Below the pieces are notes generated by a model. That model was not told where the DNA came from and ran no database searches. It worked only from the letters and a program-made list of their open reading frames with translations. Shown in pieces: positions 2,633 to 19,512 of a stretch of DNA of 62,612 nucleotides. Origin of the DNA: Candidatus Gastranaerophilales bacterium. Its GTDB lineage: Bacteria; Bacillota; Clostridia; Lachnospirales; Lachnospiraceae. Each line of letters opens with the position of its first letter. Within the stretch, counting starts at the first letter, position 1. The translations under genes and the position numbers were made by a program. The stretch covers positions 1 to 62,612 of the forward strand of contig JAMPHU010000013.1 in NCBI GenBank assembly GCA_023663225.1, written 5' to 3'.

Positions 2633-3292
2633 ATGGTAAAATACATGACATTGGCAGGAGCCATGCTCCTGATGCCCTGCCTCTATTGGACAGCCATGAG
2701 ACTGTACCAGCCATCCTTTGCGGAGGAGAAAAATCAAAGTCGAAAGCCCTTGCACTCTGCGGCGGAGATCGTCGTCATGCTGGCGGCGGAGGCGGCGCTG
2801 GTGCGCATTTGGCAGTCCCTTGGGGGATGCAGCGTGTGGGATTTAGAGTTTGAACTTTTATATATTATGTTGGTCGCCATGACGTTTTTCTGCATGACAG
2901 ATTATTGGGAGCGGGTGGTGCCGAATCGCATACTTTTGCTGCTCTTATGCCTCTTTGTCATTATCCTGGGGCTGCAGGGCATCCGAGATGGGAATGTCCT
3001 TTTGAAAAATCTGCCAGCCATTGTCTTGGGTTTTATCTTCTGTGCCATCTCCTTTGGCATCGGATATCTGGTGAGTCATGGCAATATGGGGGCGGGGGAT
3101 GTGAAGCTGGTGTTAGTCATGGGGCTGTATTTGACCGGAGAGTATGTGGTGGGAGCCGTTTTTTACGGATGCGTCATCGGTGCGCTTTATTCCGTCATAC
3201 AGTTGGCGCGCAGGAAATTATCCCGCAAGGATGCGATTCCTTTTGTGCCGTTTCTGTTTGCGGGGGTCATTTTAAGATATTTGATAGGGTAG
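2633..3292 (+). CDS. A24-family prepilin peptidase (TadV/CpaA-like)
   Basis: A 219-aa, strongly hydrophobic multi-spanning protein. It keeps both aspartates of the GxGD aspartyl proteases: Asp90 in MTDYWERVVPN and Asp156 in GAGDVKL. It lacks the N-terminal cysteine domain of the large prepilin peptidases, as is usual for Tad systems. It would cut the leader from the TadE-like and Flp-like prepilins at the cytoplasmic face of the membrane. A GGGAGGGAGAG ribosome site precedes the ATG, and the next gene follows after 7 bases. This is one of three A24-type proteins in the window (others at 41328 and 49166). Confidence 0.88.
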   Translation: MVKYMTLAGAMLLMPCLYWTAMRLYQPSFAEEKNQSRKPLHSAAEIVVMLAAEAALVRIWQSLGGCSVWDLEFELLYIMLVAMTFFCMTDYWERVVPNRILLLLLCLFVIILGLQGIRDGNVLLKNLPAIVLGFIFCAISFGIGYLVSHGNMGAGDVKLVLVMGLYLTGEYVVGAVFYGCVIGALYSVIQLARRKLSRKDAIPFVPFLFAGVILRYLIG

Positions 3293-4656: not shown

Positions 4657-6123
4657 ATGTTGACGGATGTGGTAATCGCAAATAAGAGTTATACCAAGCT
4701 GAATCTATCGGAGGACAAAGTGGTGGACAATATCGCCCTCAAGGTCATAAAGCAGGATTGTCCCAATTTCCTGCTGCCCATAAAGGCCATTGAGATAGAC
4801 GGAGAGCTGGAGCTGCGCTACGAGTTGTTGGAAGGAATACGCCTCTGCTACAATACGATGAAAATGAGCAAAAATGAGTTTGTCGTGCTCTTGAAGAATA
4901 TGCTGACACCCTTTAAAATTTGCAGCGATTGGTTCCTGGATTACCACAATATCCTGATGGATGCAAATTACATATTGGTGGGAAAAGGGGGCCGGCCGGT
5001 CAGATATCTCTATCTCCCCGTGCCGGAGTATGCTCATTCCGATGCGGAGATTATGGACTTTTTCTGGAATATTGTGCTGAAGGCAGAGATAGAGGATGAT
5101 CCGCGGTATGCTATGAATCTGCTGCGGGTATTAAAGGGAGACAATGCGAATCTGATGACGCTTTTGGACTATGTATCAAAGGAGGAGGGCGCTCTGGAAC
5201 AGACGCCCGATTCCGCGCAGGAGGGTATGGGTTCGGCGGCTCCCGCGGCCAGACCTTTCCAGGAGGTGTCACCTGTTGTGAGACCGGTTCAGCCGGCGGG
5301 GGATACAGGGGCAGTATTCCGTCCTGCAACGCCCGCCGTGAATGTTTCGCCCACTCCGGAGAAGGAGAAAGCTTCCGGTGGGACGGACTACAAGGGAAGT
5401 ACAGGAGGTGCGGCAAGGCCCGGGCAGATGCCGAAGGAATTTGGCAAGCAAGACGTGGAGGGCCAACTGGTGGGGAGCCTTTTTGGAGATGACGAGGAGG
5501 ACGAGCCGGTAAAGAAGGGCAAGAAAGCCAAGACGCCCAAGCAGCCGAAAGCGCCCAAGGAGAAAAAGGAAAGCGGCCTGTTTGATCTTTTCAAGGGAAA
5601 AAACAAGAATGATGGAGCGAAGTCCTCCACTTTGACGGACGGGGGACAGGGAGCCATCGCAGGCGGAGCTGCAGTAGACAGGCCCGCGCCTGAGACCGGA
5701 TCGGTCCAGGGTGGCTGGCAAAGTTCGGGGGATTATGAAAAGGAGGACGTCACCGAGATTGTCGGAGAAGAGGAAGTTAATGACGGCAATCTGTTAAAGT
5801 TAAGCTTGGAGGATGGCGCGGGATATAACTGTCCCAAGTATATAGAGATCGATTTGAGCAAGGGATTTGCCACCGTGGGGAGACTGGACAAGAACGGTCA
5901 GAAACAGTCGGATTTCAATTTTGATGCCTCCCTGTCATTTGTCAGCCGCAGACATTTCCGTGTGGAAAAGGCGGGGGATGGGTGGAGGATCATCGATCTG
6001 GAATCCAAAAATGGGACTTTCTTAAACGGCGAACAGTTGAGTCCCAATATAGCATATCCTCTGCGCTCTGGTGACAGGATTATGATTTCCAGCAAAAACC
6101 GTTTGACGTATAGGGTAATTTGA
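4657..6123 (+). CDS. DUF6382-FHA domain protein (phosphothreonine reader)
   Basis: In this 488-aa soluble protein, residues 1-170 match the DUF6382 type of N-terminal domain that precedes FHA domains in clostridia. Residues about 185-370 are a Pro/Ala/Lys-rich low-complexity linker. The last 100 residues are an FHA domain with GRLDKNG, the SFVSRRHFRV block and the SKNGTFLNG block, which carry the conserved Arg/Ser/His/Asn residues that bind phosphothreonine. A strong GGAAAAGGAG site precedes the ATG. The gene is directly followed by a PP2C phosphatase and a Ser/Thr kinase, so it is the likely reader of their phosphorylation. A paralogue closes the second Tad operon at 50105. Confidence 0.87.
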   Translation: MLTDVVIANKSYTKLNLSEDKVVDNIALKVIKQDCPNFLLPIKAIEIDGELELRYELLEGIRLCYNTMKMSKNEFVVLLKNMLTPFKICSDWFLDYHNILMDANYILVGKGGRPVRYLYLPVPEYAHSDAEIMDFFWNIVLKAEIEDDPRYAMNLLRVLKGDNANLMTLLDYVSKEEGALEQTPDSAQEGMGSAAPAARPFQEVSPVVRPVQPAGDTGAVFRPATPAVNVSPTPEKEKASGGTDYKGSTGGAARPGQMPKEFGKQDVEGQLVGSLFGDDEEDEPVKKGKKAKTPKQPKAPKEKKESGLFDLFKGKNKNDGAKSSTLTDGGQGAIAGGAAVDRPAPETGSVQGGWQSSGDYEKEDVTEIVGEEEVNDGNLLKLSLEDGAGYNCPKYIEIDLSKGFATVGRLDKNGQKQSDFNFDASLSFVSRRHFRVEKAGDGWRIIDLESKNGTFLNGEQLSPNIAYPLRSGDRIMISSKNRLTYRVI

Positions 6124-6125
6124 CG

Positions 6126-6860
6126 ATGAAAGTTTGGATGGGCTGCATATCTGACAAGGGAAATTACAGGGAAAAGAATCAAGATCGGGCGGTATGCCAT
6201 GTCAGGAGAAAAGGCAAGTCTGTGCTTGCCGTGGCCTGTGTGTGCGACGGCATTGGCAGTTTTGAGAGAAGTGAAATTGCGGCGGAGATGATGACGTCGG
6301 GCATCTCCCGATGGTTTCACGGGATAGAAGCGTATTACCCGACTTCCATGGGGGAGAAGGAGCTTGTGGAGGACTTGAATGTCACCATATGCGAGTTGAA
6401 TGAGTTGGTGTACGATTATCGAATGGAGAATGGGATTGAAATTGGCTGCACCATGTCGGTCATGCTTCTAGTGGAGCGGAATTACTATATTTTTCATGCG
6501 GGCGACAGCCGCATCTACTGTGTGCGGGACGGGCTTTTGCAGATTACGCGGGACGAGGTCACGATGAAGGAGTCTCACGGGAAAGTGAAGCCCAGGCTGG
6601 CCAATTACATCGGAAAATCTAAGGAGCTTTGGATGAACGTGCTGGGCGGCACGGTGGAGGAGAAAGATGTCTACCTGCTGGGCTCGGACGGGCTGTTCAA
6701 GAAGCTCTTGTACGAGGATGTAAGGGGGATTGCAGGAAGCGTGAAGAACGACAAAAAGGCGCAGAAGGTCTGCAAGAGCCTGCTTGATGTGGTTTTGGAG
6801 AGAGGAGAGCGGGATAATGTGTCCTGTATCTTGCTCGCTATTGCGTCCGTTGACGGTTGA
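6126..6860 (+). CDS. PP2C-family Ser/Thr protein phosphatase
   Basis: About 244 aa, a compact stand-alone PP2C domain. All metal-binding signatures are visible: NQDR near the N-terminus, CDGIGS, AGDSRIY, GSDGLF and RDNVS near the C-terminus. It should remove phosphate from Ser/Thr residues modified by the neighbouring kinases. The start is uncertain: a TTG at 6120 overlaps the FHA stop codon (TTGA), while ATG 6126 lies just after it; I chose the ATG. The gene sits between the FHA reader and the kinase, with coupled junctions on both sides, which is the classic eraser-reader-writer arrangement. Confidence 0.92.
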   Translation: MKVWMGCISDKGNYREKNQDRAVCHVRRKGKSVLAVACVCDGIGSFERSEIAAEMMTSGISRWFHGIEAYYPTSMGEKELVEDLNVTICELNELVYDYRMENGIEIGCTMSVMLLVERNYYIFHAGDSRIYCVRDGLLQITRDEVTMKESHGKVKPRLANYIGKSKELWMNVLGGTVEEKDVYLLGSDGLFKKLLYEDVRGIAGSVKNDKKAQKVCKSLLDVVLERGERDNVSCILLAIASVDG

Positions 6861-6886
6861 AGACAAAAGAGGTATGTGAGATAGAT

Positions 6887-9193
6887 ATGGCAGCGTTGGA
6901 AAAAGGTACTATACTGGAAAATACATATGAGATCATCGAGGAGATAGGCTCCGGAGGAGGCGGTATTGTATTTAAAGCGCGGCACCTTCGACTGCAGACA
7001 GATGTGGTAGTAAAAAAGATCAAGGATGAGGTGCAGGGGAAGGTGAAGTCCCGTCAGGAAGCGGATATCTTAAAGCGGCTGAAGCATCCCTTTTTGCCCA
7101 GAGTATATGACTTTATTGAGACAGAGGATGGCGTGTACACGGTGATGGACTTCATTCAGGGGGAAGATCTGGATGAGGCTGTCAAAAAGCATGGCAAGTA
7201 TCCGCAGAAACAGGTAAAAAAATGGGCGGAACAGCTTGGCGAGGCCCTGGCCTATCTGCACGGCCAGAAACAGCCGATTATCCACAGTGATATCAAGCCT
7301 GCCAATATCATGTTGACAGGAGAGGGGAATGTCTGTCTGATCGACTTTAACATCTCTCTTGCCATGGGCGGGACAATGGAATCGGCGGTGGGCATCAGCG
7401 CCGGATTCTCTCCGCCGGAACAATACAGGGATCCCGCGCTGTATGCCAGAATGACGCACAACTACACTTTGCAAAATTCTCTCCGCATGGCAAAAGGGGA
7501 GGACGACAGAACGGAGACCTTGCCGCGGGAAGCGGAGGATGACACCACAGAGGTATTGCCGCGGGAAGCGGAGGACGACAGGACGGAGACTTTGCCGCGG
7601 GAAATGGAGGATGACACCACGGAACTCCTGTCACAGGAAGAGGATGACACCACAGAAACCCTGCCGCGGGAATCCTGGCAGAGAAGAGATAAGACGTCCG
7701 CTTTGAGCGGGAGCAATGTCCCTGGATATACAAAGTTTATCGGGAGGGGAATTGACGCCAGGTCGGACATCTACAGCCTGGGAGTCACATTATACTATGT
7801 ACTGACCGGTGTGAAGCCTTCGTATGACTTTGAGCAGAGAATCCCGGTCGGTGAGACGGGAGTCTATGTCAGTGAAGGCTTTGCCCTGATTTTGGAGAAA
7901 ATGATGGCATTATCGCCGGATGCGCGCTATCAGAACGGGGAAGAATTTCTGAAAGCGATTCGGAATTGCTATAAGTTGGATCGTCGTTATAAGGTCATGC
8001 ACCGTAGGCAGACCGGTATCCAGCTAGCCGCGCTGGCCTGTCTGGCGGCGGGGATGTTGGTGACTGCGGGCGGCATATACAAAATGCGCGCGGACAGAAA
8101 CAGCGCATATTATGAATTGATACAGCAGGCGGAAAGCGCCATAAGCCGGTACGGCTTTGATGAGGCGGGGGCTCTGCTGGTGAACGCGAAGGCATTGATT
8201 GAGACGAGGGTGGAGGCGTATGAGAACGAGGTATATCTTCTGTATCTGAACGGAAATTATGACGAGTGTATCTCCCTGGGGGAGAACTATATCAATACGA
8301 CTCCTTTTTTGCTGGAAACCGAAGAGGACGAGGAACGGTTTGGAAATATTTTTTATATCGTTGGAAATGCCTATTTTGAAAAAGAAGATTATCCCAATGC
8401 GAAAAATTTGTTTGAGTACGCTATAGAATATAATAACAAGAACGGATTGTACTACAGGGATTACGCGATCACACTGGCGAAAATGGGTCAGATCGAAGCG
8501 GCAAAGACGCAGTTGGAGCGGGGAATCGAAATGGGGATTGCCCAGGACTCTATTTATATGGCCCAGGGAGAGATCGCCCATGTAAAGGGGCTGTACGAGG
8601 AAGCGGCGGAGTACCTGACGCAGACGATAACGACGACTGCCGACGAGCAGATGAAGAAAAGGGCCATCCTGCTCTGTGTCAGCGCCTATAAGGCAATGGG
8701 CGGAGATGCTGTCAACAGAGAGATCACATTACTGGAACAGAACAAAGATCAGTTTGCGGGCAGCGGGAACCTGGTAATGACGGAATATCTGGCGGACGCA
8801 TACGCCAGGAAAGCGCAGATGGACGATGCGGAGGAATATTATCAGAAAGCGCTGGACCTGTTCCAGGTGATCTATGACGATGGTTATGTGACCTATCAAC
8901 TGCAGCAGAATATGGCTATTCTGTATGAGAGCATGGACCGCTTCGACGAGGCGGAATCGTTGCTGCTTCAGATGGCGGAGGAATATCCGGAGCGTTATGA
9001 AGTATATAAGAGACTGGCCTATCTGGAAGCCGATGTCCAGCAGACGAAGGAAAATGCGGACAGGGACTATGTGCAGATGCAGCTCTACTATGAGCGGGCG
9101 TTGGAGAAATATTCCGGAAAAGAACAAGACCTGGAGATGGACATGCTGGATGGGATGATGCAGGAGTTAAAGGATGGCGGATGGATCGAATAA
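6887..9193 (+). CDS. transmembrane Ser/Thr kinase with TPR ectodomain
   Basis: A 768-aa Hanks-type kinase. The glycine loop GSGGGGIVF is at 21-29, the lysine at about 43, the catalytic loop HSDIKPAN with Asp135, and metal-binding Asp153 in an unusual DFN instead of DFG. SPPEQY is the APE equivalent and DARSDIYSLG is subdomain IX. Between these last two lies a five-copy acidic Thr-rich repeat (residues 206-262). One membrane segment (about 376-400) leads to a large extracellular TPR region (about 410-750). The Arg of HRD is replaced by Ser, so it is a non-RD kinase. TTG 6857 overlaps the phosphatase stop and is an alternative start; ATG 6887 fits kinase N-termini better. Kinase activity is inferred. 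Confidence 0.9.
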   Translation: MAALEKGTILENTYEIIEEIGSGGGGIVFKARHLRLQTDVVVKKIKDEVQGKVKSRQEADILKRLKHPFLPRVYDFIETEDGVYTVMDFIQGEDLDEAVKKHGKYPQKQVKKWAEQLGEALAYLHGQKQPIIHSDIKPANIMLTGEGNVCLIDFNISLAMGGTMESAVGISAGFSPPEQYRDPALYARMTHNYTLQNSLRMAKGEDDRTETLPREAEDDTTEVLPREAEDDRTETLPREMEDDTTELLSQEEDDTTETLPRESWQRRDKTSALSGSNVPGYTKFIGRGIDARSDIYSLGVTLYYVLTGVKPSYDFEQRIPVGETGVYVSEGFALILEKMMALSPDARYQNGEEFLKAIRNCYKLDRRYKVMHRRQTGIQLAALACLAAGMLVTAGGIYKMRADRNSAYYELIQQAESAISRYGFDEAGALLVNAKALIETRVEAYENEVYLLYLNGNYDECISLGENYINTTPFLLETEEDEERFGNIFYIVGNAYFEKEDYPNAKNLFEYAIEYNNKNGLYYRDYAITLAKMGQIEAAKTQLERGIEMGIAQDSIYMAQGEIAHVKGLYEEAAEYLTQTITTTADEQMKKRAILLCVSAYKAMGGDAVNREITLLEQNKDQFAGSGNLVMTEYLADAYARKAQMDDAEEYYQKALDLFQVIYDDGYVTYQLQQNMAILYESMDRFDEAESLLLQMAEEYPERYEVYKRLAYLEADVQQTKENADRDYVQMQLYYERALEKYSGKEQDLEMDMLDGMMQELKDGGWIE
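7502..7672 (+). repeat. five-copy acidic Thr repeat inside kinase
   Basis: Four 36-base-type units plus one 33-base unit encode DDRTETLPREAE, DDTTEVLPREAE, DDRTETLPREME, DDTTELLSQEE and DDTTETLPRE. They lie in the kinase between the APE-like motif and subdomain IX, where kinases are often controlled by phosphorylation. Each unit presents one or two threonines in an acidic setting followed by a hydrophobic residue, like known FHA docking sites. Confidence 0.9.
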
Positions 9194-9220
9194 TTTCAGC
9201 CGGAAAGGGATGGTTTGGAT

Positions 9221-9355
9221 ATGAGTGCAACGGTTATGATGGGAACGGGAATTGGCATGATAGCGCTTTCCCTGATCTTGTTTGTAGTCAGCATCGTCTA
9301 CCGGAAAACGGCGGGCAGGAAGATTCGGGAAGAATTGCAAAGAGAGTATGAGTGA
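9221..9355 (+). CDS. 44-aa single-span membrane protein
   Basis: Starts at ATG 9221, 27 bases after the kinase stop. The protein has a short N-terminus, a hydrophobic segment (about 10-27) and a basic/acidic amphipathic tail ending in REELQREYE. It resembles the 53-aa protein at 15912 in length, layout and tail (KIKRKLEQEYGKR against KIREELQREYE), and that one also sits next to a kinase gene. The repeated association makes translation likely. It has no recognised family; a kinase accessory or regulator is a guess. Confidence 0.65.
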   Translation: MSATVMMGTGIGMIALSLILFVVSIVYRKTAGRKIREELQREYE

Positions 9356-9393
9356 GGGCAGCTATAAAGAACATAAAGCAGGAGAAAAGCAAA

Positions 9394-10461
9394 ATGAACA
9401 CAGAGAATAACGGGCAATTACCGGAAGCGGAGGATAAGGCCGCAAAATTGGTTGAGAATACAGGAGGTCAGGAAAAAGCAGGGAGAAAGAGATGGCTTTT
9501 TGTTGTTATAGGTCTGGTTTTGGTTCTGCTGGCGGCGATCATAATAGGCGTGACCATATTTAGAGACAGCGGTAGAAGACTGCAGGAACAGCTTGATCTG
9601 GGTGCAAAATATTTGGAGGAGATGGACTACGAGCAGGCGTTGGTGGCGTTTCATGCAGTGTTGGAGATAGAGCCGAGAAATGCGGACGCTTATCTGGGTA
9701 TCGTGGAAGTCTATATAAGGATGAATGATTTTGAGTCCGCACTGGAATATGCCAAGGAAGGTTATGAGGTTACTGAGGACGAGCGTCTGAAGGAAAAGAT
9801 CGACATGATAGAAAGCGGAGATATTTTCGCCTCTAATGGCTGGCAAATGAAAATGTCCGGTTATGACGGAGATGGGAATCTTATGTTTTGGCATGAATAT
9901 ACCTACAATCTACAGGGACAAATGGCGTCCGTTGCCAAATATAATGATCAGGGAGTGCAGGAACAATATTTGGAACTGGCTTATGATGAGGAGGGAAGAA
10001 AACTTATAAAATATGGTTATGGTGTAACAACGGGGTTTCTGAATAAAGCAACAATAGAATATAGTGGCAATAATTATCGAGAGACATGGTATGAGGGGAC
10101 AAGTGATATTGCAAGTTATTACCGTGAGTGTGAAGTGGATTCCGAGGGAAAGCCACTAATGTATACATACTGCAATATGGATGGCAGTGTAAGAAGTACG
10201 ACAGTTTACGAATATGATGAAGATGGTAAGAGAGTAAGAAGTGAAGGTTATAATGCGGACAATCAGTTGACTGGTTATATGATCTATACATATAACAGCG
10301 TGGGAAACTCTTTGCAGGATCAGCATTATGATGAGGAAGGAAATCTTATCTCATATAATGAATATGTTTATGATGACGACGGCAACCGCATAGGAACACG
10401 TAGTTATGATGGCAATGGAGTCCTACAGTCGGAGCGGGTATATAATAATCAATCTGAATAA
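9394..10461 (+). CDS. membrane-anchored TPR protein with YD-like repeats
   Basis: About 355 aa from ATG 9394, which has a CAGGAG site nine bases upstream; a GTG at 9352 overlapping the previous stop is a weaker alternative. A membrane segment (about 33-55) is followed by a TPR module (about 63-140) and then tandem beta-rich units such as YDEDGKR, YDEEGNLI and YDDDGNRI, similar to RHS/YD-type repeats. The first 140 residues are clearly paralogous to the WG-repeat protein at 10687 (both contain KYLEEMDYEQA). Topology predicts an extracytoplasmic C-terminus. Ligand and role are unknown; it belongs to the kinase cluster by position and strand. Confidence 0.75.
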   Translation: MNTENNGQLPEAEDKAAKLVENTGGQEKAGRKRWLFVVIGLVLVLLAAIIIGVTIFRDSGRRLQEQLDLGAKYLEEMDYEQALVAFHAVLEIEPRNADAYLGIVEVYIRMNDFESALEYAKEGYEVTEDERLKEKIDMIESGDIFASNGWQMKMSGYDGDGNLMFWHEYTYNLQGQMASVAKYNDQGVQEQYLELAYDEEGRKLIKYGYGVTTGFLNKATIEYSGNNYRETWYEGTSDIASYYRECEVDSEGKPLMYTYCNMDGSVRSTTVYEYDEDGKRVRSEGYNADNQLTGYMIYTYNSVGNSLQDQHYDEEGNLISYNEYVYDDDGNRIGTRSYDGNGVLQSERVYNNQSE

Positions 10462-10494
10462 AAATAGAAAATCGAAAAAACAGGGATCAGACAA

Positions 10495-10644
10495 ATGCGC
10501 ACAGTCATATTGGACAGCGATGAACAGCTTTGCGTACAGTATACCTTTGAAAATGATAAATTGCTCTGTGTAAAATACGGCTGCGGATTGCCGGACAACC
10601 TTAGAAGCAAAGCGCTTAACTGGCTGGGCAAGTTGATACGGTGA
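10495..10644 (+). CDS. 49-aa hypothetical ORF
   Basis: A short ORF from ATG 10495 to the stop at 10642-10644 fills the gap between two TPR genes. A weak purine-rich site (CAGGGA) lies upstream. The product has no membrane segment or known motif and ends in a basic stretch (NLRSKALNWLGKLIR). It may be a small gene or the leftover tail of a deleted paralogue. Family unknown. Confidence 0.35.
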   Translation: MRTVILDSDEQLCVQYTFENDKLLCVKYGCGLPDNLRSKALNWLGKLIR

Positions 10645-10686
10645 TCGTATTTGTGAGTTTGACAATATACGATGGAGGAACAAACG

Positions 10687-12165
10687 ATGGAAGAACAAGA
10701 GATAGAGAAACAGGAGATGACAAAGAAAAAGAAATGGATCCTATGCGCGGTCGCGATAGTGATATTATGCCTTATCGTGGCAGGGCTTCTTTTCATAATT
10801 TTAAACAGTGCCGAAAGACGGCTGTCGGCGCAACTGGAGTTGGGGCAGAAGTACTTGGAAGAGATGGATTATGAGCAGGCTATTGTGGCCTATGAGGCAG
10901 CCATTGCCATCGATCCGAAATGTATAGACGCCTATCTTGGCATGGCGGAAGCTTACATTGGGATGGGAGAATATGAAAACGCTCGGGAGAGTTTGAACAA
11001 GGCGCTGGAATTGGGCGAGGAGAACGAGCGGACGCTGGATATCCAACGCATCCTGGAGGAAGCGGAGCAGATACAGGTCACTGTCACAAAGACAGAGATT
11101 CAGGCGGACGGCGTGTTTAATCAAGAGGGGTATGGGAGTCTTACCATCAATGGGGTTGGCAGTCTGTGGGAAAATTGGGAGAATCCGGAGAGTGTCATTC
11201 CGCCTCAGAAAGCTTTGGTGGATGCCGACGGCAATTTTGTGTTCCCGTATCAGTCTACCTATCTGACTTATCGTATTTCGGATGGGGTGGTATCCTTGAC
11301 GGAGGATTCGCCTTATTATACATCAGATGGCTACGAAGAGACGGAGTATCTTCCGGCGTATTACAACCTGGACGGAAGCGGTGTGTTTGTGTCGGAGGTT
11401 GTCACGAGTGAACCGGATGAGCATACCGTGGAGACGACTTGGTGGCACTGCGGTCCTATGCAGGATGGATATGCGTTGGTGATTAAACATGTGAATACTA
11501 CTTATTGGGATGGTTTTGTTGGCGCCGGTGGGTTTGAAGAAATTTCCTATATTATGGACAAAAACGGAACGATCACATGTACTCTTCCGGAAGAATTTAA
11601 TGAAGCGATAGCAGATAGCCTTGGCGGTTTTGATGCCAAATATTCTCTGGGCTGGTGCGGCGAAGGTTTGTTTGCGGTCTTTGAGAATCATTACGATGAA
11701 GACTGGAACTATTTCAGCGAAGGGAAAGGGTATCTGGATTCTGCCGGAAATATGGCGATTGATTTGTCGGGGCGCGGTTTTACAAATCTCTGGCCTTTTT
11801 ATGAGGGACTTGCGGCTGTTTTGGGTGAAAACGGAATGATCGGCTTTATAGACAAAACCGGCGAGCTGGTGATCCCCTGTAGTTATGAAGGCGTTACCGG
11901 ATTTGGTGAAGGCATTTGCGGAGTGAAAAAAGACGGGAGATGGGGATATATCAATAGGGACGGCAGTGAAGTCATACCCTTTGAATACGACGGCGCCTAC
12001 GGCGCAGGCGGCGGTTTGGCTTCGGTGGTGAAGGACGGGAAATGCGGACTGGTCGATTACAGCAACCGTATTATCGTGCCGTTGGAATATGATGATATCA
12101 GTTCCTATGAAGGCGGTACCGCCTATGCCATAAAGGATGGAATTTTGTATATTATTTCCGAGTAA
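10687..12165 (+). CDS. membrane-anchored TPR / WG-repeat protein
   Basis: About 492 aa from ATG 10687, which has GGAGG eight bases upstream; ATG 10672 is in frame but lacks a site. The protein has a charged N-terminus, one membrane segment (about 16-38), two TPR-like helical pairs (about 48-115), a beta-rich middle and C-terminal WG repeats (about 300-490) such as GRWGYINRDGSEVI and GKCGLVDYSNRIIV. The N-terminal module matches the protein at 9394, while the C-terminal repeats resemble those at 3300. It is probably an extracellular sensor or scaffold of the kinase cluster; no ligand can be named. Confidence 0.78.
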   Translation: MEEQEIEKQEMTKKKKWILCAVAIVILCLIVAGLLFIILNSAERRLSAQLELGQKYLEEMDYEQAIVAYEAAIAIDPKCIDAYLGMAEAYIGMGEYENARESLNKALELGEENERTLDIQRILEEAEQIQVTVTKTEIQADGVFNQEGYGSLTINGVGSLWENWENPESVIPPQKALVDADGNFVFPYQSTYLTYRISDGVVSLTEDSPYYTSDGYEETEYLPAYYNLDGSGVFVSEVVTSEPDEHTVETTWWHCGPMQDGYALVIKHVNTTYWDGFVGAGGFEEISYIMDKNGTITCTLPEEFNEAIADSLGGFDAKYSLGWCGEGLFAVFENHYDEDWNYFSEGKGYLDSAGNMAIDLSGRGFTNLWPFYEGLAAVLGENGMIGFIDKTGELVIPCSYEGVTGFGEGICGVKKDGRWGYINRDGSEVIPFEYDGAYGAGGGLASVVKDGKCGLVDYSNRIIVPLEYDDISSYEGGTAYAIKDGILYIISE

Positions 12166-12195
12166 AAAACGAGTCTTGACGGGAGGAGAAGGAAA

Positions 12196-12572
12196 GTGAA
12201 AAAGCGAGAGCAAAAGACAATGCAAAAGAGGAGAATGAGACAGTGCCTGGCGGTTTTACTGGCGGTGTTCCTGGCGATGCCGGAGGTGCCCGCGTCTGCT
12301 GCAGAGACGGAAGTACAGGAGAATCCGACAGAGATTGTGGCGGAGGACGCCGCGGGAGAGGATGCTGCGGGAGAAGAACCGGCCAAGACAGAGGCACTGG
12401 AGGAGACCGCAGGGGACGATAGTGAGAGAACCGTCGGTGAGGCGGAAGAGCCGGAGGCAGGCGACGAGCAGATCGAGGCTTATGCGGAGGATATTGCCAA
12501 GCGAATCAAAACGTGATTGCCAGTCCGGAGCGTCTGCGCGTGGGACAGAAACTTGTGGTGCCTGGAAGATAA
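12196..12572 (+). pseudogene. deletion remnant of BspA/LysM surface gene
   Basis: An ORF with a good ribosome site starts at GTG 12196. It encodes a signal peptide and an acidic stretch that match the start of the intact gene at 12630 (RRMRQCLAVLLAVF, then VQENPTEIVAE, then DEQIEAYAEDIA). At about 12495 the sequence jumps to DNA nearly identical to the last 75 bases of the intact gene (the LysM tail, 15797-15869), but in another frame, so translation ends at 12516. All repeats and both LysM domains are lost. The 106-aa product, if made, would be a secreted acidic peptide without a known function. Confidence 0.85.
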
Positions 12573-12629
12573 ACCAGTTGTTCGCAAATTAAAAGTAGTG
12601 ATAGTTAAAATGGTTAGGAGGTAAGAGAG

Positions 12630-15600
12630 ATGAGGAGAATGAGACAATGCCTGGCGGTTTTGATGGCGGTGTTCATGGCGATGCCGGGGCTGCCTGCGTC
12701 TGCCGCAGGGGCGCAAGTACAGGAGAATCCGACAGAGATTGTGGCGGAGGCAGGCGATGAGCAGATCGAGGCCTATGCGGAGGATATTGCCAGCGGAACT
12801 TCCGGTGGGATTACCTGGAGGATTGACGGGGACGGGAAACTTTTTGTGAGCGGGAGCGGAGATTGGGACAGTATTTATGCTCCATGGTCTGATTACGGGG
12901 AACAGATTGTTTCAGCGGAGGTTAATGTGACGGGCATGACCACTGCAAGCAGTATGTTTTTGAACTGCAGCAATTTAAGCAGCGTGGACTTGAGCAGATT
13001 AGACACGAGCAGCGTGACAATCATGGGTCATATGTTTTCTGGCTGTAACAGTTTAAGCAGCGTGGACTTAAGCGGATTAAACACTAGCAACGTGACGAGC
13101 ATGTGGTGTATGTTTTCTGACTGTAGTGGTTTGAGCAGTGTGAACTTGAGCGGATTAGACACGAGCAGCGTGACGAACATGGAAAGCATGTTTTCTAACT
13201 GCAGCAGTTTGAGCAGTTTGGACATGGGCGGATTAGACACGAGCAGTGTGTTGAACATGAACTCTATGTTTAGCGGATGCAGCAGTTTGAGTAGCCTGGA
13301 TGTAAGCGGCTTCAACACGAGCAGCGTGACGAGCATGAAATTTATGTTTTCTGGTTGTAGTAGTTTGAGCAGTCTGGATGTGAGCAATTTTAACACAGGC
13401 AGTGTGACAAACATGAGCGGTATGTTTTCTGGGTGTAGTAACCTAAGCAGCGTGGATGTGAGAGGCATTGACACGAGCAGCGTGACGGACATGAGCGGTA
13501 TGTTTGAGTTGTGCAGCGGTTTAAAGAGCCTTGATTTAAGCGGTTTTGACGTGGGCAGTGTGGAACAATTTTATACGGGGCCGCCGGCTGCCTCTACATA
13601 TTGGGGGATGGTAGGGATGTTTTCCGGCTGTGAGAATTTACTCACAATTCGTTCTCCCTATAATAATACTGGGACGACAGAGCTTCCCGATGTCGCTAGT
13701 GGCACTTGGAAGCTTTCCGACGGCACACAAATCACGGAGCTGCCTCTCGGTTTAAGCGAGAGCGTTCTGATCACTCGGAACCTGGAAATAAGCGGAATCA
13801 GCGGTGGGATTACCTGGGGGATCGACAGACACGGGAAACTCTTTGTGAGCGGAACCGGAGATTGGGACAGTGAAGTTACTTACAATCCATGGTATGATTA
13901 CTGTCGCAATATTACTTCGGCGGAAGTCAATGTGACGGGCATGACTTCTACTGCCAATATGTTTCGTGACTGTACGTATTTAAGCAGCGTGGACTTGAGT
14001 GGATTAGACACGAGCAGCGTGACAGATATGGCGGGTATGTTTTATGGCTGTACCCGTTTAAGCAGTCTGGACGTGAGCGGCTTAGACACGAGCAGTGTGA
14101 CGAATATGAGCAATATGTTTATAAAGTGCCGCGAATTAAGAAGCCTGGACTTGAGTGGATTTAACACGGGCAACGTGACGGATATGAGCGATATGTTTGA
14201 AGGTTGCTCCGAATTGAGGAGCGTGGACGTGAGTGGATTTAATACGAGCAATGTGACGAACATGTACCAGATGTTTATGCATTGCGGAGTTTTAAGCGAG
14301 CTGGACTTGAGTAGCTTTCATACGAGTAGTGTGACGAATATGGGGCAGATGTTTCATGGCTGCAGCAGTTTAAGCAGCGTGAATGTGAGTAGTTTTGATA
14401 CGAGTAATGTGACGAGTATAGGCGATATGTTTACTATGTGTAGTAGTTTAAGCAGTTTAGATCTGAGCAGTTTTGATTTGCGCAATGTGTCGAGTATAGA
14501 GCCTGGTATTGGGAGCATGATTTCAAGCTGCAGCAATTTAACTTCGATCAATGCGCCGTGTAATGTGAACGCAGCAATCAACTTCCCTTTCGTTATCAAC
14601 ACCGAATGGTATCGTGAGGATAACGGAGAAGTGGTGACGGAACTGCCTCGGAATTTGAGCGAAAGCGTCCTGATTCTTCGGCGCGACACCGCACCCACCA
14701 TCACCACCACGACCACTGATCTCAACATGGAGGACGTGATCAGAGTCAAGTACGTGCCTTACTTCTACACCGTTCGTACCAGCAATACGGACGAGGACAA
14801 CGTAGTCACCTTCTCCGTGGTGGAAGGACGGCTGGCGAAAGGGTTAGAGATGTACCCTGACACCGGTGAGATTTACGGTGTGCCCCTGGAGGCGGGAGAA
14901 TTTAAGGTGACAGTGAAAGCCTCCTACAGCAATTCGGACTACGAGCCCGCCTATGCGGAGCTCACTTTGATCGTGTTGGAAAATACAGATGCGAACGTGA
15001 GCAAGGCCTCAGACGCGGGATATGAGATTATTGAGCCTGTGCCTGATCTGGACCTGGGAAGCCTGTCGGGAGACGGCAGCCACACGGTGGTCTCCAAGGG
15101 CGAGTATGATCATTTTTGCTATGTATTTCTGGACGGCAGGAGGCTGGAGAAAGACGAATATACTTCAGAGGAAGGGAGCACCCGCGTCACCATTGTGAAT
15201 CAGACCTTTGTGGAGGCAGGGGCCGGGAACCATACTCTGGGTCTTGAATTTTATAATCGGGAAACAGGAGAGAGAAAACGTGCGGCGCAGAATATCACGG
15301 TCTCCAAAGTGGGTGAAAACGGCGGAAATACAAGCAATAATGGAAATGGAAGCACTGATAACAACGGAGATACCGGCAATGCCGGAGGCACGGGAAGCGG
15401 CGGCAACAGCGGCGATAACAGTAGTGACGACAGCGGCGACGCGGGGGACAGCGCAAGCCTGGTTTCAGCGGTTTCCAATGCGAACAGCTCCACCACCGTC
15501 ATCTACACGGTAGCGCCGGGCGATACCCTGTGGAAAATCGCGGTAAAGTTCTACGGAGCAGGTGGAATGTGGAGAAGGATCTATGAGGAAAATGCGGGTG

Positions 15601-15869
15601 TGATACGGGATCCCGGCAAGCTTTATGTGGGCCAGAAGCTTGTGATCCGCTTATCGGGTGCCGCAGGGACGACAACGATGACGGCAGCGGCGGCGTCCGG
15701 AGAGGCGAGCTCCTATCAGGTGCAGTCTGGGGACAGCCTATGGAAGATTGCGCAGAGATTTTATGGAAAAGGCGGACTTTGGGAACGTATTTACCAAGCG
15801 AATCAAAACGCGATTGCCAGTCCGGATCGTCTGCGCGTGGGACAGAAGCTTGTGGTGCCTGGAAGATAA
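12630..15869 (+). CDS. secreted BspA-type repeat protein with two LysM domains
   Basis: 1079 aa. A signal peptide ends near Ala25-Ala27 (PASAAG). A beta-rich block GGITWRIDGDGKL precedes the first set of BspA-like (DUF285) repeats at about 95-310, and a second copy of the block at about 392 precedes a second repeat set at about 425-620. Units have the pattern LSGLDTSSVTNM plus SMFSGCSSL. A cadherin-like domain (about 700-795), another beta domain and a Gly/Asn/Ser linker follow, then LysM domains at 959-1007 and 1029-1078 that should bind peptidoglycan. GGAGG precedes the ATG. It is probably an adhesin or matrix-sensing protein held at the wall by LysM. Position between kinase genes suggests a partner or substrate of the signalling system. 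Confidence 0.88.
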   Translation: MRRMRQCLAVLMAVFMAMPGLPASAAGAQVQENPTEIVAEAGDEQIEAYAEDIASGTSGGITWRIDGDGKLFVSGSGDWDSIYAPWSDYGEQIVSAEVNVTGMTTASSMFLNCSNLSSVDLSRLDTSSVTIMGHMFSGCNSLSSVDLSGLNTSNVTSMWCMFSDCSGLSSVNLSGLDTSSVTNMESMFSNCSSLSSLDMGGLDTSSVLNMNSMFSGCSSLSSLDVSGFNTSSVTSMKFMFSGCSSLSSLDVSNFNTGSVTNMSGMFSGCSNLSSVDVRGIDTSSVTDMSGMFELCSGLKSLDLSGFDVGSVEQFYTGPPAASTYWGMVGMFSGCENLLTIRSPYNNTGTTELPDVASGTWKLSDGTQITELPLGLSESVLITRNLEISGISGGITWGIDRHGKLFVSGTGDWDSEVTYNPWYDYCRNITSAEVNVTGMTSTANMFRDCTYLSSVDLSGLDTSSVTDMAGMFYGCTRLSSLDVSGLDTSSVTNMSNMFIKCRELRSLDLSGFNTGNVTDMSDMFEGCSELRSVDVSGFNTSNVTNMYQMFMHCGVLSELDLSSFHTSSVTNMGQMFHGCSSLSSVNVSSFDTSNVTSIGDMFTMCSSLSSLDLSSFDLRNVSSIEPGIGSMISSCSNLTSINAPCNVNAAINFPFVINTEWYREDNGEVVTELPRNLSESVLILRRDTAPTITTTTTDLNMEDVIRVKYVPYFYTVRTSNTDEDNVVTFSVVEGRLAKGLEMYPDTGEIYGVPLEAGEFKVTVKASYSNSDYEPAYAELTLIVLENTDANVSKASDAGYEIIEPVPDLDLGSLSGDGSHTVVSKGEYDHFCYVFLDGRRLEKDEYTSEEGSTRVTIVNQTFVEAGAGNHTLGLEFYNRETGERKRAAQNITVSKVGENGGNTSNNGNGSTDNNGDTGNAGGTGSGGNSGDNSSDDSGDAGDSASLVSAVSNANSSTTVIYTVAPGDTLWKIAVKFYGAGGMWRRIYEENAGVIRDPGKLYVGQKLVIRLSGAAGTTTMTAAAASGEASSYQVQSGDSLWKIAQRFYGKGGLWERIYQANQNAIASPDRLRVGQKLVVPGR
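12950..14520 (+). repeat. BspA-type tandem repeats (two blocks)
   Basis: About 70-75 base units encode the LSxLDTSSVTNMxxMFxxCxxL pattern; two blocks (about 12950-13560 and 13950-14500) are separated by a non-repeat spacer. Such repeats recombine readily, which fits the deleted neighbour copy at 12196. Confidence 0.8.
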
Positions 15870-15911
15870 CAATATTATGATGGGCGCCGCGTAACGGCCA
15901 AGGAGGACGAT

Positions 15912-16073
15912 ATGGGATTGTCAGGGAGTGAGATGCTTTTTTACGGCGGATTGGGCGCCATGGCGGCAGCGGTGGCGCTGGCGGTAGTGTGCGCGGTGAT
16001 TTTGTCTGCGAGCGGCAAAAAGATCAAGAGAAAACTGGAACAGGAATACGGGAAACGAAAGTCTGATAAGTAA
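15912..16073 (+). CDS. 53-aa single-span membrane protein
   Basis: ATG 15912 follows a strong AAGGAGGAC site. A short N-terminus leads to a long hydrophobic segment (about 8-32) and a basic amphipathic tail (SGKKIKRKLEQEYGKRK). It resembles the 44-aa protein at 9221, and each sits beside one of the two kinases. The kinase gene starts 12 bases downstream, so the two are likely translated together. No family recognised. Confidence 0.72.
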   Translation: MGLSGSEMLFYGGLGAMAAAVALAVVCAVILSASGKKIKRKLEQEYGKRKSDK

Positions 16074-16085
16074 GGAAGTGCAAAG

Positions 16086-18992
16086 ATGGCGCAAGTAATT
16101 GCTGGTATGTATGAAATACGGGAAAAAATCGGAGCCGGCGGCGGTGGCGTGGTCTACCTGGGGTGGAACCAGCGTTTGAAGAAACAGGTGGTGCTCAAGG
16201 CGGACAAACGTAGGCTGAGCGCCTCCGAGGAGGCGCTGCGCAGGGAAGTGGACATGCTCAAAGGTTTGAGCCATACTTACATTCCGCAGGTATACGATTT
16301 TGTGCAGGAAGACGGTGTAGTCTACACGGTGATCGACTTTATCGAAGGGGAGAGCATGGACAAGCTTCTGGCCAGAAAGCAGCGTCCCAGTCAGCCCCAG
16401 GTGATCCAGTGGGCATGCCAGCTCTTGGAGGCGCTCGCCTATCTTCACAGCAGGCCGCCGTATGGTATATTGCACGGGGACATAAAACCCGCCAATATTA
16501 TGCTGCGTCCACAGGGGGATGTGTGTCTGATTGACTTCAATATTGCCCTGGCTCTGGGAGAAGACGGCGCGGTGAAGGTAGGTTTCAGCCGAGGATATGC
16601 TTCTCCGGAGCATTACGGGGCGGATTATATCAACAGCAACCGTCTGGCCAAGGCGGACGCGACGATGACGGACGAGGCTTCGGAAACTATGGCAGAAGGA
16701 GATTCGGACGAAACGGTGGCGGACAGCGGGGGAGAGGAGCGCAGCAGGGGGAAATCCGTGTCTGTGGGGAAAGGTTCCACGCAGGAAAAGGGTGGCGTTA
16801 AATTGGACGTGCGGTCGGATATTTACAGCCTTGGGGCAACGCTCTATCATCTTTTGTCCGGCAGCCGTCCGGAGCAGGACGCCAGGCAGGTGACGCCTCT
16901 GGGGGCGGATGTGTGCAGTCCAGCGGTGGCGGCCATCATAAGCAAGTCCATGGATCCCGACCCTGATTTGCGCTATCAGACAGCCGAGGAAATGCGCAAT
17001 GCGTTTCTTGCGCTGCATAAAAAAGATCCCAGGATCGTCCGGCACAGGAGGCGGACAATGACCTGTGCGGCAATCTTGTCCGCTGTCTTTTTGGCGGGCG
17101 GCGGATGTACTTTCGTGGGACTAAAGCAGATGGAACAGAGACAGACGGCTCTCGCCATGGCGGAATATTCGGCCAATGCGTTGGCAGAGGGAAATGTGTC
17201 GGAGGCTGTAAACCTGGCCCTTGGGGCCATTCCTCTGGAGAAAAGCCTTCTTTGTGCGCCTGTCACGGCGCAAGCCCAGAAGGCGTTGACGGATGCTTTG
17301 GGTGTCTATGATTTGTCGGACGGCTTCAAGGCACTGGACGCACTGGAGCTTCCGGCGGAACCCTTTGGCATTGCGGTCTCTCCTAGGGGAACTCGATTTG
17401 CAGCTACCTATGCCTATGAGACTGCCGTGTATGCCATGGAGGACGGACAGCGCATAGCTGTGCTTCCGATACAGAACTCTGCGCTTTCGGATGTAGTCTT
17501 TGTGGATGAAAACAGGATCGTCTATGCGGGAGAGACGGGCATAACGGCCTATGACTTGGACGGACAGAAAGAACTGTGGTCAGGTGAAATTGCCACCACA
17601 TTGGCGGTTTCGGGAGATGGGGCTATCGTTGCGGCGGTCAATCGGAATGAGGATCATGCGGTGATCTACAGGATGTCGGACGGCGTAAAGCTGACGGAAT
17701 GTTCCTTTGACGGGCTGTATCTGTCGGTGGCGGCCAATGATATTTTTGCGGATCCTGATAATAATCTGTTTGCGTTAAATGAGGACGGAAGCCTTCTGGC
17801 GGTGAGTTTCTACAATGGAGGGCTTGCGCTTTTGGATTGGGAGCGCCCTGACGAGAGTCTGATTATTTATGACGAGTCAGATTATGTGCGCTTCGGGGGC
17901 GGTTTTTTTGACGGATATTTTGCTTTTGCCGCGCAGAGAAGCGGCGAATCCCAATTTGGACTGATCGATGTCAAGGAGGCGGCTTACGCGGGGGGATACA
18001 GCTCCCAAAATGGCCTGCTGATCCAGTCGGACGGGCGCGGAATTTATCTGGCGGACGGAAATCTTTTGGTGAGTCTGGAGGTCGGCAGGGACGGTTCCCT
18101 GGAAGAGCGTGAGATGGCTTACACAGGGAATGTAAATATCAATGCTTTTTCCATAGGGGACGGTTATGTTATGGTGGCGACGGACGATCAGTGTTTTTCT
18201 TTCTATGACGCGGGAGCAAATTTGGCCTCCACGGAAGTCTGCGGTGAGAATAGCGATTTTGTGGCATTGGCCGGCGGCTATGCCATTGCCGGAAATCGAA
18301 ATGAGCCGTCTCTGCGCGTATTGAAGTTGGAGAGACATGAGGAAACGCAGGTTTTGTCCTACGATGCCCGCTACAGCCATGAGGAGGCAAGAATTAGCGG
18401 GGACGGGAAAAGCGTTATGCTGTTCGACTATCAGGGTTTCTGCATTTACGATATCGGCGGCGATCTGCGGACGCAGGTACAGATGCCGGATGCCGGAAAT
18501 ATCTATGACCAACAGTATAGAAAGGGTGAGGACGGCTCCTATTTGGAGGTCATATGGTATGACGGGACTGTCCGCAAATATGACGGGACGGACGGCAGCC
18601 TGCTTTCGGAGGAAGCAGGAGAGCCTCCGGCAAAGGATCTGTATGAAGAATTTTACACCGAACAATATCGAGTGGCGTCTGCCCTTCACTCTGCTCCGGA
18701 AGTTTATGACTTGAAAACAGGGAAGCTGATCGCTACCTTGGAGAAGGATGCCTTTCTCACCTACGTGACGCAGATGGGGGATTATCTTGTCACGGAATAT
18801 ATCAGTGCGTCAGGGGAGCGTTACGGACTTTTGCTGGACAAGGATTTTCAGACATTAGCCTATCTGCCCGGACTCTGTGATGTCAATGGCGATAGCTTTC
18901 TCTTTGACTACGAATCCGGTAATCTGCGGCAGAGCAGACTGTATTCTTTAGAGGAACTGGTGGAGTTGGGAGAGGCTTTGATAGAAAAGTAA
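16086..18992 (+). CDS. transmembrane Ser/Thr kinase with propeller-like ectodomain
   Basis: 968 aa. Hanks-type kinase domain (about 8-310) with glycine loop GAGGGGVVYLG at 16-26, Lys38, catalytic loop HGDIKPAN (Asp132), a DFN motif (Asp150), SPEHY and DVRSDIYSLG. Like its paralogue at 6887 it is non-RD and has DFN in place of DFG. The segment between SPEHY and subdomain IX is expanded and rich in Thr/Ser/Asp/Glu (for example SETMAEGDSDETVAD). A membrane segment (about 325-346) is followed by some 600 extracellular residues of beta-rich repeats resembling a WD40-like propeller. It would sense an envelope signal and phosphorylate cytoplasmic targets. Start is supported by GGAAG before ATG 16086. 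Confidence 0.88.
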   Translation: MAQVIAGMYEIREKIGAGGGGVVYLGWNQRLKKQVVLKADKRRLSASEEALRREVDMLKGLSHTYIPQVYDFVQEDGVVYTVIDFIEGESMDKLLARKQRPSQPQVIQWACQLLEALAYLHSRPPYGILHGDIKPANIMLRPQGDVCLIDFNIALALGEDGAVKVGFSRGYASPEHYGADYINSNRLAKADATMTDEASETMAEGDSDETVADSGGEERSRGKSVSVGKGSTQEKGGVKLDVRSDIYSLGATLYHLLSGSRPEQDARQVTPLGADVCSPAVAAIISKSMDPDPDLRYQTAEEMRNAFLALHKKDPRIVRHRRRTMTCAAILSAVFLAGGGCTFVGLKQMEQRQTALAMAEYSANALAEGNVSEAVNLALGAIPLEKSLLCAPVTAQAQKALTDALGVYDLSDGFKALDALELPAEPFGIAVSPRGTRFAATYAYETAVYAMEDGQRIAVLPIQNSALSDVVFVDENRIVYAGETGITAYDLDGQKELWSGEIATTLAVSGDGAIVAAVNRNEDHAVIYRMSDGVKLTECSFDGLYLSVAANDIFADPDNNLFALNEDGSLLAVSFYNGGLALLDWERPDESLIIYDESDYVRFGGGFFDGYFAFAAQRSGESQFGLIDVKEAAYAGGYSSQNGLLIQSDGRGIYLADGNLLVSLEVGRDGSLEEREMAYTGNVNINAFSIGDGYVMVATDDQCFSFYDAGANLASTEVCGENSDFVALAGGYAIAGNRNEPSLRVLKLERHEETQVLSYDARYSHEEARISGDGKSVMLFDYQGFCIYDIGGDLRTQVQMPDAGNIYDQQYRKGEDGSYLEVIWYDGTVRKYDGTDGSLLSEEAGEPPAKDLYEEFYTEQYRVASALHSAPEVYDLKTGKLIATLEKDAFLTYVTQMGDYLVTEYISASGERYGLLLDKDFQTLAYLPGLCDVNGDSFLFDYESGNLRQSRLYSLEELVELGEALIEK

Positions 18993-19002
18993 TATCTAAA
19001 AT

Positions 19003-19464
19003 TTACAAAGCAATGTGTATCAACATAAGCACCGCCCCGTAAGCGACGTGATATCCCGCAAAGAGCAGGATGCCCTTAGCTGCGGGGCGGTAGTTGCCTT
19101 TGCAGCGGAGCAGCAAAACGATCGAGATGAGCAGCATCCACAAAAGGGTCAGAATAAGAGGATGCTCCCAAAGAAGGAAAAAACTCAGGCCATAATATAA
19201 CATAAATCCGCCTTCCACAATGGGATAGGATTTGGATATCGCTGTGTGACAATAATGGCATTTGCCGTTCAACAAAAGCCAGCTTATCACAGGAATCTGA
19301 TGGGATGTGGGCAGAATATGACCGCATGACGGGCAATGGCAATGTCTGGTGACAAGCAGCTCATCGCAGCGTATCCGATACGCTACTGTGCCAAGATATG
19401 CGCCCATGACGCTTCCAAAGACTACCGTGCATAAGAAAAGTGATATAAATTCAGGCAGAGTCAT
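19003..19464 (-). CDS. stand-alone N-terminal domain of prepilin peptidase
   Basis: About 153 aa from the ATG at 19464, which has AGAGGGG about eight bases upstream; a longer form from 19506 is less likely. It has several membrane segments and a four-cysteine arrangement CPSC and CHYC about 20 residues apart, the pattern of the DiS_P_DiS domain of large type IV prepilin peptidases. The catalytic GxGD half is absent: after the last Cys pair there are only two or three membrane helices and no aspartate motif. The Tad peptidases here lack this domain, so it could complement them or be a leftover of PilD. It converges on the kinase gene with a 10-base gap. Confidence 0.7.
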   Translation of the reverse strand: MTLPEFISLFLCTVVFGSVMGAYLGTVAYRIRCDELLVTRHCHCPSCGHILPTSHQIPVISWLLLNGKCHYCHTAISKSYPIVEGGFMLYYGLSFFLLWEHPLILTLLWMLLISIVLLLRCKGNYRPAAKGILLFAGYHVAYGAVLMLIHIAL

Positions 19465-19512
19465 GAGCAGTTCCCCTCTAAGGTAGATTGTGCATATTGT
19501 ATACATGTTTTT

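Follow-up and report, generated by a model that had tools for sequence, protein, structure and literature searches.

Why should a locus for a Tad-type pilus carry, behind its pseudopilin and prepilin peptidase genes, a putative phosphothreonine reader, a phosphatase and two membrane Ser/Thr kinases, and what might these proteins do there? The question is raised by a 62,612-nucleotide stretch of DNA (the window), which is the whole of contig C16 (JAMPHU010000013.1) of a 111-contig draft genome of Candidatus Gastranaerophilales bacterium (GCA_023663225.1, placed in the Lachnospiraceae by GTDB and coded G000 here). At its start, a single plus-strand array encodes, in order, DUF5702, TadE-like, A24 peptidase, WG-repeat, DUF6382-FHA, PP2C, kinase STK1, tetratricopeptide repeat (TPR), TPR-WG, BspA-fragment, BspA-LysM and kinase STK2 proteins. 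The best explanation of this array is that it forms the regulatory tail of a Tad-family pilus or secretion locus. Our proposal as a whole, that such a tail holds a phosphothreonine docking circuit of swappable sensor cassettes, appears to us somewhat more probable than improbable. The features at the centre of the argument are:

4657..6123, plus strand: DUF6382-FHA reader, 488 amino acids (DUF6382 at residues 9-148, 41.0 bits; FHA at 406-477, 58.4 bits).
5743..5763, plus strand: pre-FHA threonine motif EDVTEIV, with candidate phospho-acceptor T366 (codon 5752-5754).
6120..6860, plus strand: PP2C-type phosphatase (PF13672, 36.9 bits; PF00481, 35.5 bits; closest NCBIfam model Stp1, 111.7 bits, below the cut-off of 230).
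6857..9193, plus strand: STK1, Ser/Thr kinase with TPR ectodomain (PF00069, 136 bits; hydrophobic helix 390-408; HSDIKPAN at 143, DFN at 163).
7427..7753, plus strand: STK1 insert (residues 191-299), after the APE-equivalent motif, with five tandem EDDxTExLPRE-type units.
7494..7672: DNA repeat array within the STK1 insert, period 36, 5.1 copies (Tandem Repeats Finder).
16086..18992, plus strand: STK2, Ser/Thr kinase with an ectodomain of about 620 amino acids (PF00069, 121 bits; helix 328-346; HGDIKPAN at 130, DFN at 150).
16617..16805, plus strand: STK2 insert (residues 178-240) with TMTD, TMAE and TVAD; looser motif only, strict pattern absent.

Both window kinases possess all the catalytic Lys, HxD, Asn and Asp motifs. 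Among 56 kinases of the two types (listing required an HxD or HxN), H[GSAC]D and, in place of DFG, D[FY]N are present in every one. Between the APE-equivalent motif and the helix starting near RSDIY, 55 of the 56 include an insert of 36-192 amino acids. Twenty further kinases could be parsed from 46 loci; two of them, in a type VII secretion system (T7SS) locus of G062, have inserts and the other 18 serve as controls, with 5-21 amino acids at this position and the strict motif described below in none.

The inserts are rich in a short threonine motif. Its strict form, [DE].T.[VILM], occurs 75 times where 13.0 are expected, a number equalled in 0 of 2000 shuffles, and is found in 35 of the 55 inserts (11.3 expected); the serine form is not enriched (10 against 13.6). 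A looser form is present in 49 of 55 (34.0 expected). Kinases of the second, STK1 type provide a partly independent set of ten inserts, one of which (L145) was parsed as empty yet counted and which includes G000 and G004, two of the kinases in which the motif was first seen: here 20 motifs stand against 2.8 expected. Tandem units differ from lineage to lineage and keep the core (EDDTTEVLPRE, DDDRTQI, DDDRTEV, DVTQVEPDGMPVGS, DSDSTQVDGYAGA and DDDKTEVLDAYA). Five copies are present in window STK1, in G004, G001 and G144 and in the STK1-type kinase of L152, and four in G037, with spacers that are all different.

Could these inserts simply be functionless, low-complexity acidic repeats, expanded by slippage, with the threonine pattern as a by-product? 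Array turnover is indeed fast (window STK1 and its sister from G071, 64% identical, differ in both units and copy numbers) and six of the 55 inserts lack even the looser motif. Nevertheless, units of unrelated sequence retain the threonine core, serine versions are not enriched and a like threonine is nearly invariant in the FHA protein (see below), and we consider this explanation very improbable.

A similar motif occurs in the putative reader. In the 70 residues preceding the FHA domain, a looser motif, [DE].{0,2}T.[VILMF], is found in 27 of 29 proteins (7.1 expected), and in the rest of the linker in two of 29; the 29 are those of 36 proteins taken by the looser of two FHA finders, and the seven missed also have, by eye, T-x-[VIL] stretches ahead of FHA. 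In a 24-row alignment with a mean column identity of 26%, T366 is conserved at 90% or more. FHA proteins from other DUF6382 loci (13 parsable among 30, together with that of a second Tad locus in the window) are not enriched in the acidic motif (3 of 14 against 1.6), and 11 of the 14 have T-x-[VIL]-[VILM] before the FHA domain, where 1.4 are expected for a pattern set after looking. Among 14 gene groups, only kinases, FHA proteins and TadA surpass every shuffle for the motif. TadA was rejected as a phosphosubstrate since its matches, in 14 of 15 sequences, are the conserved ATPase stretches ITEVMING and EITEV. Zinc-ribbon proteins adjoining STK1-type kinases contain EDATIL (L037, 14930-15541, minus strand) or EDLTEV (L184, 9064-9846, minus strand) and are possible phosphosubstrates.

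Kinase and reader share a similar motif, the kinases are of the non-RD type and the reader has an FHA domain; from this we infer that the kinase phosphorylates both its own insert and the threonine ahead of FHA, one or both of which the FHA domain would then bind. In the circuit that we propose, a cassette would consist of a membrane kinase with its own ectodomain and an envelope partner, which would be a TPR protein in the case of STK1 and a BspA-type one in that of STK2. The ectodomain would read the state of the envelope and activate the kinase, which would then phosphorylate threonines in its post-APE insert and the pre-FHA threonine of the DUF6382-FHA protein. The FHA domain might be held by the phosphorylated insert, which offers several docks in many kinases, such that recruitment could scale with repeat number; alternatively it might be held by its own pre-FHA phosphothreonine, in a switch resembling that of GarA/OdhI. 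Both this closing and a recruitment resembling that of the type VI secretion system (T6SS) are possible, and the data do not separate them. FHA engagement would in turn alter the effect of DUF6382 on the secretion machine, and the PP2C phosphatase would reset the circuit. The idea that DUF6382 is an EssB-like pseudokinase was not retained: an 18-sequence profile has no match in the PDB at E values of up to 10.

Is this circuit truly part of a Tad locus? The remaining features of the array and its border are:

1..1761, plus strand: DUF5702 protein, 5' truncated by the contig start (PF18960, 69.9 bits; frame open from base 1, first start codon at 28).
1772..2620, plus strand: TadE-like pseudopilin (PF07811, 25.7 bits against a cut-off of 22.9; one hydrophobic helix, 17-35).
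2633..3292, plus strand: A24 prepilin peptidase (PF01478, 49.5 bits).
3300..4637, plus strand: membrane-anchored WG-repeat protein (PF14903, 119 bits; helix 17-35), whose gene in relatives usually adjoins that for FHA.
9352..10461, plus strand: membrane-anchored TPR protein with a YD-like C-terminal part (PF14559, 36.5 bits).
10672..12165, plus strand: membrane-anchored TPR-WG protein (PF14903, 109 bits, and TPR).
12196..12516, plus strand: short open reading frame (ORF; 106 amino acids), a BspA fragment matching the N-terminus of the next gene's BspA protein at 51%.
12630..15869, plus strand: BspA-type (DUF285/PARCEL repeat) secreted protein with two C-terminal LysM domains (PF03382, 303 bits; LysM, 85.6 bits; TIGR02167, 403 bits; LRR).
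19003..19506, minus strand: A24 N-terminal domain protein (PF06750, 79.7 bits).

The contig starts inside the DUF5702 gene, that is, in the tail of a Tad locus, and the array thus begins at or before base 1; an oligopeptide ABC transporter beyond the A24 N-terminal domain gene (minus strand) puts its end near 19.0 kb. The sequence-only reading had recognised the pseudopilin, peptidase, FHA, PP2C, two kinases and repeat proteins on one strand, and Pfam matches and ORF positions bear this out, except that pseudopilin and peptidase precede 4657, where it had the array begin. Of the repeat types that it had named, Pfam recognises TPR, WG and BspA, but neither YD in 9352-10461 nor TPR in 3300-4637. 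Judging from the single hydrophobic helix in each, both kinases probably expose their C-terminal parts outside the cell, and the WG, TPR and BspA parts are probably extracellular too; a search for such a helix in the DUF6382-FHA reader found none. The kinases had also been credited with sensor parts of TPR and propeller type. This holds for the TPR of STK1; for STK2, whose 32-row alignment has a mean identity of 50%, a propeller fold is possible and unproven, the ectodomain profile giving only marginal matches in the PDB (best E 4e-5, to 'Tako8', which we take to be a designed propeller; no stretch passing alone). The ORF at 12196-12516 may be a remnant or partial duplication of the BspA gene whose N-terminus it echoes. 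The A24 N-terminal domain protein is without the catalytic A24 part; in many relatives its gene lies between those of PP2C and STK2, usually on the opposite strand.

That the array is real, and no chance cluster, is confirmed by the conserved gene order in relatives. The FHA protein matched in 36 of 61 genomes of the genus, mostly through the FHA domain alone; the near-full-length matches, in G004, G037, G001 and G043, all have the same neighbours. STK2 orthologues, recognised by ectodomain profile, occur in 15 of 299 genomes of the family including the source genome, each in another genus, and 38 loci came from scanning named genomes, most of them Lachnospiraceae by title with some Oscillospiraceae or other Clostridia. 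With five duplicates dropped there were 52 loci, and exclusion of G004, which has no STK2, left 51 STK2 loci, whose genes were counted with profiles that we built from the first loci. The order TadZ-TadA-TadB-TadC-TadE-DUF5702-TadE-A24-WG-FHA-PP2C-STK2-BspA is kept, in full or up to the contig edge, in most relatives. Some vary: A24 and WG are ahead of DUF5702 in G043, G184 and L146, STK2 is ahead of the Tad genes in G118, G298, L117 and L141, and PP2C follows BspA in G074. FHA and PP2C genes are found within 80 bases in 36 of 51 STK2 loci, the order FHA, PP2C, STK2 is found in 33 of the 37 loci having both, and a BspA gene, the usual neighbour of STK2, is present in 42 of 51. Tad genes accompany 39 of the 51, with TadA, B or C in 15 within the stretch examined. 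The check on gene order named by the sequence-only reading thus came out in its favour.

In the window, the TadE-like and A24 matches are both above the Pfam cut-off, and TadA, B and C are outside the array seen, these genes being upstream in relatives, where the DUF5702 protein is intact (824-1195 amino acids, downstream of TadC). Small ORFs of 64-106 amino acids follow TadC in relatives. DUF6382 itself is present in 292 of the 299 family genomes. Near 30 DUF6382 loci examined, an A24-like gene was found within 1.5 kb in 30 and a TadE-like gene in 20 (our own profiles, E 1e-3), so that most such loci seem to be other Tad loci. One of them is the second Tad locus of the window (41304-51481), in which Pfam recognises A24, T2SSE (TadA), T2SSF and DUF5702, similarity points to a TadZ-like gene and inspection by eye to a TadE-like ORF. 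Its DUF6382-FHA gene (50105-51481) has the pre-FHA threonine in RTVYI; apart from those of the array, the contig encodes no kinase, and none of the scanned neighbours is a PP2C. Flagellin and FliS genes (38771-40535) immediately precede this locus, whose TadC-like gene (44754-46277) includes an atrophied bacterial Ig domain, aBig_2. A third set in the source genome (L035, on contig C46) comprises an ATPase and two T2SSF genes; it was not accepted as the missing motor of the array, its ATPase being only 26-29% similar.

The sequence-only reading had suggested a dedicated phosphothreonine circuit that would sense the surface and control a pilus-like apparatus. This is supported in part. A conserved Tad-tied unit with intact-looking kinase, phosphatase and FHA proteins and similar threonine motifs agrees with such a circuit; dedication does not hold, as the same kinase types occur in T7SS loci. 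Twelve of the 51 STK2 loci are without Tad genes. Four of these have T7SS genes (WXG100 in G127 and L147; an EssC-type ATPase in G161 and, on the opposite strand, L149) and eight have neither; for six of those eight the stretch spans at most 16 kb, and for the other two (L142 and L144) 21.9 kb. STK1-type kinases with near full-length matches stand beside Tad genes in G000, G004, G144, G116, G184, L145 and L152 and in T7SS loci in G062 (two kinases) and G071, where FtsK/SpoIIIE, FHA and WXG100 proteins are confirmed by Pfam and the kinase gene lies between those for EssC and WXG100. Kinases of G195 and G110 also adjoin EssC-type ATPases but match STK1 in the kinase domain only and were left out of this count; seven loci have neither assignment (G130 twice, G136, G174, G182, G193 and G204). 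The kinase types are, in short, not Tad-specific.

Partners are shared as well. Relatives of the TPR protein 9352-10461 follow the kinase in G062 (29% identity) and, as two genes, in G071 (43% and 35%). A block of kinase, zinc-ribbon, vWA and TPR/RCC1-like genes (zinc ribbon and vWA by Pfam, RCC1-like by eye) is upstream of Tad genes in G004 and upstream of EssC in G062. The ectodomains and the BspA and TPR partners, which accompany a kinase type in Tad and T7SS loci, are likely to be the input side. Further variants were seen: the G071 sister of window STK1 (L231, 7228-9819, minus strand) has an additional N-terminal zinc ribbon; the T7SS locus of G161 (L090) has two STK2 copies, one split into ORFs of 343 and 630 amino acids and the other without acidic threonine motif; and L145 and L233 (G144) have four or five WG or TPR-WG genes in a row downstream of the kinase.

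A quick tree of the 56 kinase domains, inserts removed (5 of 53 branches starred, some long ends), places window STK1 as sister to the T7SS kinase of G071 with an SH-aLRT value of 99, at 80% identity over the domain and 64% over the whole protein. Seven of the 48 labelled kinases bear a T7SS label, which needs six changes on the tree, at least four of them forced by starred branches; since 133 of 500 shuffles came out as low, the label shows no excess of clustering. This supports repeated exchange of kinases between Tad and T7SS settings, in a direction that the tree does not give. We put forward tentatively, as plausible though somewhat short of an even chance, the broader view that Tad and T7SS are run by one interchangeable phosphothreonine unit, in which kinases swap ectodomain-partner cassettes and expand or shrink tandem arrays that act as multivalent FHA docks, copy number setting the response.

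The same distribution could be read otherwise, as that of a travelling envelope-stress or adhesin module, kinase with BspA, TPR and WG surface proteins, which is functionally unlinked to the Tad machine and for which secretion loci are convenient and conserved places to sit. Such a module would fit the occurrence, at both kinds of secretion locus, of kinases that are related to one another and accompanied by related partners. It would also fit the eight STK2 loci without markers of either machine in the stretch examined, the presence of DUF6382 throughout most of the family and the second Tad locus of the window with its apparently unaccompanied DUF6382-FHA gene. Against it, the FHA and PP2C genes are set, with short gaps, between the pseudopilin and peptidase genes and the kinase, and the A24-like and TadE-like neighbours of DUF6382 indicate that DUF6382-FHA belongs with Tad machinery; we find it improbable.

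The docking circuit must itself be weighed against a number of observations that do not favour it. Twenty of the 55 inserts, that of window STK2 included, do not have the strict motif, and the six without the looser form include those of the T7SS-linked STK2 kinases of G161 and L149; in G316, an array of eight or nine DSDVTEREQTFP units has Arg rather than a hydrophobic residue at +2. The choice of motif followed a look at the sequences, kinship is disregarded in the shuffles, and the units of a tandem array do not count as independent. A stricter FHA finder, which took ten proteins only, gave no clear enrichment (2 against 1.1). In known FHA domains a serine contacts the phosphate; at this position Gly is found in 21 of 35 loci and Ser in 14, and NGT is often NHT, variants that may weaken phosphothreonine binding. 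Classes of kinase-insert and pre-FHA motif, set after looking, are associated (15, 9, 3 and 0 of 27 loci; Fisher p 4.7e-5), but with only two independent pairs on starred branches kinship can explain this, and it is kept as exploratory. Finally, a search of the rest of the assembly did not turn up a Tad ATPase belonging to this locus, the only close TadA being that of the second locus, at 59% identity.

Some of these points would suit inserts that are kinase-activation or substrate segments only, with arrays tuning kinase activity or phosphatase load, and an FHA domain that reads something else such as a Tad or T7SS component. The motif core could merely reflect the kinase's own substrate preference, the FHA-linker motif often differs from the insert motif at +3 and the FHA binding-site residue varies as described. 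The T6SS offers a precedent in which, according to PMC3953482, the FHA partner is a part of the machine. In favour of docking instead, enrichment of the motif among the 14 gene groups is confined to kinase and reader, the conserved TadA stretch apart. It also counts against this alternative that kinases with H[GSAC]D are of the non-RD type, which usually need no activation-loop phosphorylation. On balance we think this alternative unlikely, if a serious competitor, and continue to prefer the docking circuit.

How does such a circuit compare with known systems? As in other Tad pilus loci, TadZ, TadA, TadB, TadC, TadE-like and A24 peptidase genes are present in relatives of the window locus; the type described here adds kinase, phosphatase, FHA, WG and BspA genes. 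The window kinases and PP2C belong to the same superfamilies as Stk1/PknB-PASTA and Stp1, but Pfam finds no PASTA domain in the kinases, which reach 140.8 and 135.6 bits with NF033483 (cut-off 450), and the phosphatase likewise falls short of the cut-off of the Stp1/IreP model NF033484 (111.7 against 230).

In OdhI, the targeted threonine near the N-terminus lies ahead of the FHA domain, and the protein is not known to contain DUF6382. As in GarA/OdhI, the window reader has a threonine motif (T366) N-terminal of its FHA domain; it is, however, a 488-residue protein with DUF6382 rather than a small FHA-only protein, and OdhI is not encoded in a pilus locus. PMC9769921, in the part concerned, describes OdhI as a 15-kDa metabolic regulator with Thr14 as the target of PknG.

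The T6SS threonine pathway shares with the window a kinase, a phosphatase and an FHA protein beside a secretion machine. Its phosphatase is PppA, encoded in a ppkA-pppA pair. In the account of PpkA, Fha and phospho-TssL given in PMC3953482, threonine phosphorylation read by FHA switches the machine on. In the window, the reader is of DUF6382-FHA type and the candidate phosphosites are in kinase and reader, so far not in a machine part. No T6SS family was found among the window proteins scanned, and TIGR03354 (VI_FHA) gives 28.4 bits against a cut-off of 120.

The closest precedent is the T7SS. PMC11217815, in the passages that concern these loci, describes variants T7SSc-f with a kinase (TscD/TsdD/TseD), a PPM phosphatase (TscF/TseF/TsfF) and DUF6382-FHA (TseJ/TsfJ), and the window resembles these in having a membrane kinase with cytoplasmic N-terminal kinase domain, a PPM phosphatase and DUF6382-FHA in one secretion locus. 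Like T7SSe it has all three, but neither an EssC-type ATPase nor a WXG100 protein was found in any window ORF, and the triad lies inside a Tad locus without T7SS genes. The combination, of which the sequence-only reading knew no description, is therefore known as regards the triad; a search of titles and abstract openings, with most subscription journals outside it, found no description of the triad in Tad loci or of threonine arrays. Ectodomain types, BspA and TPR partners, threonine-motif inserts and Tad-T7SS exchange were not found in those passages of PMC11217815. Within the literature searched, what is new here is the Tad setting and the threonine arrays. The arrays suggest a kinase design with tandem docking sites inside the kinase domain and minisatellite-like turnover, and the proposal predicts phosphosites to the single residue, with short motif peptides and a small FHA domain suited to binding tests. 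BspA, TPR, WG and STK2 ectodomains would be candidate inputs by which gut commensals might couple the state of envelope and surface to pili and secretion. The passages of PMC11217815 on T7SSg and T7SSh, which Tad genes adjoin, leave as a question whether the neighbouring systems share regulation; the circuit proposed here offers a testable answer and, if true, would amount to one swappable control unit for two unrelated secretion machines in Clostridia.

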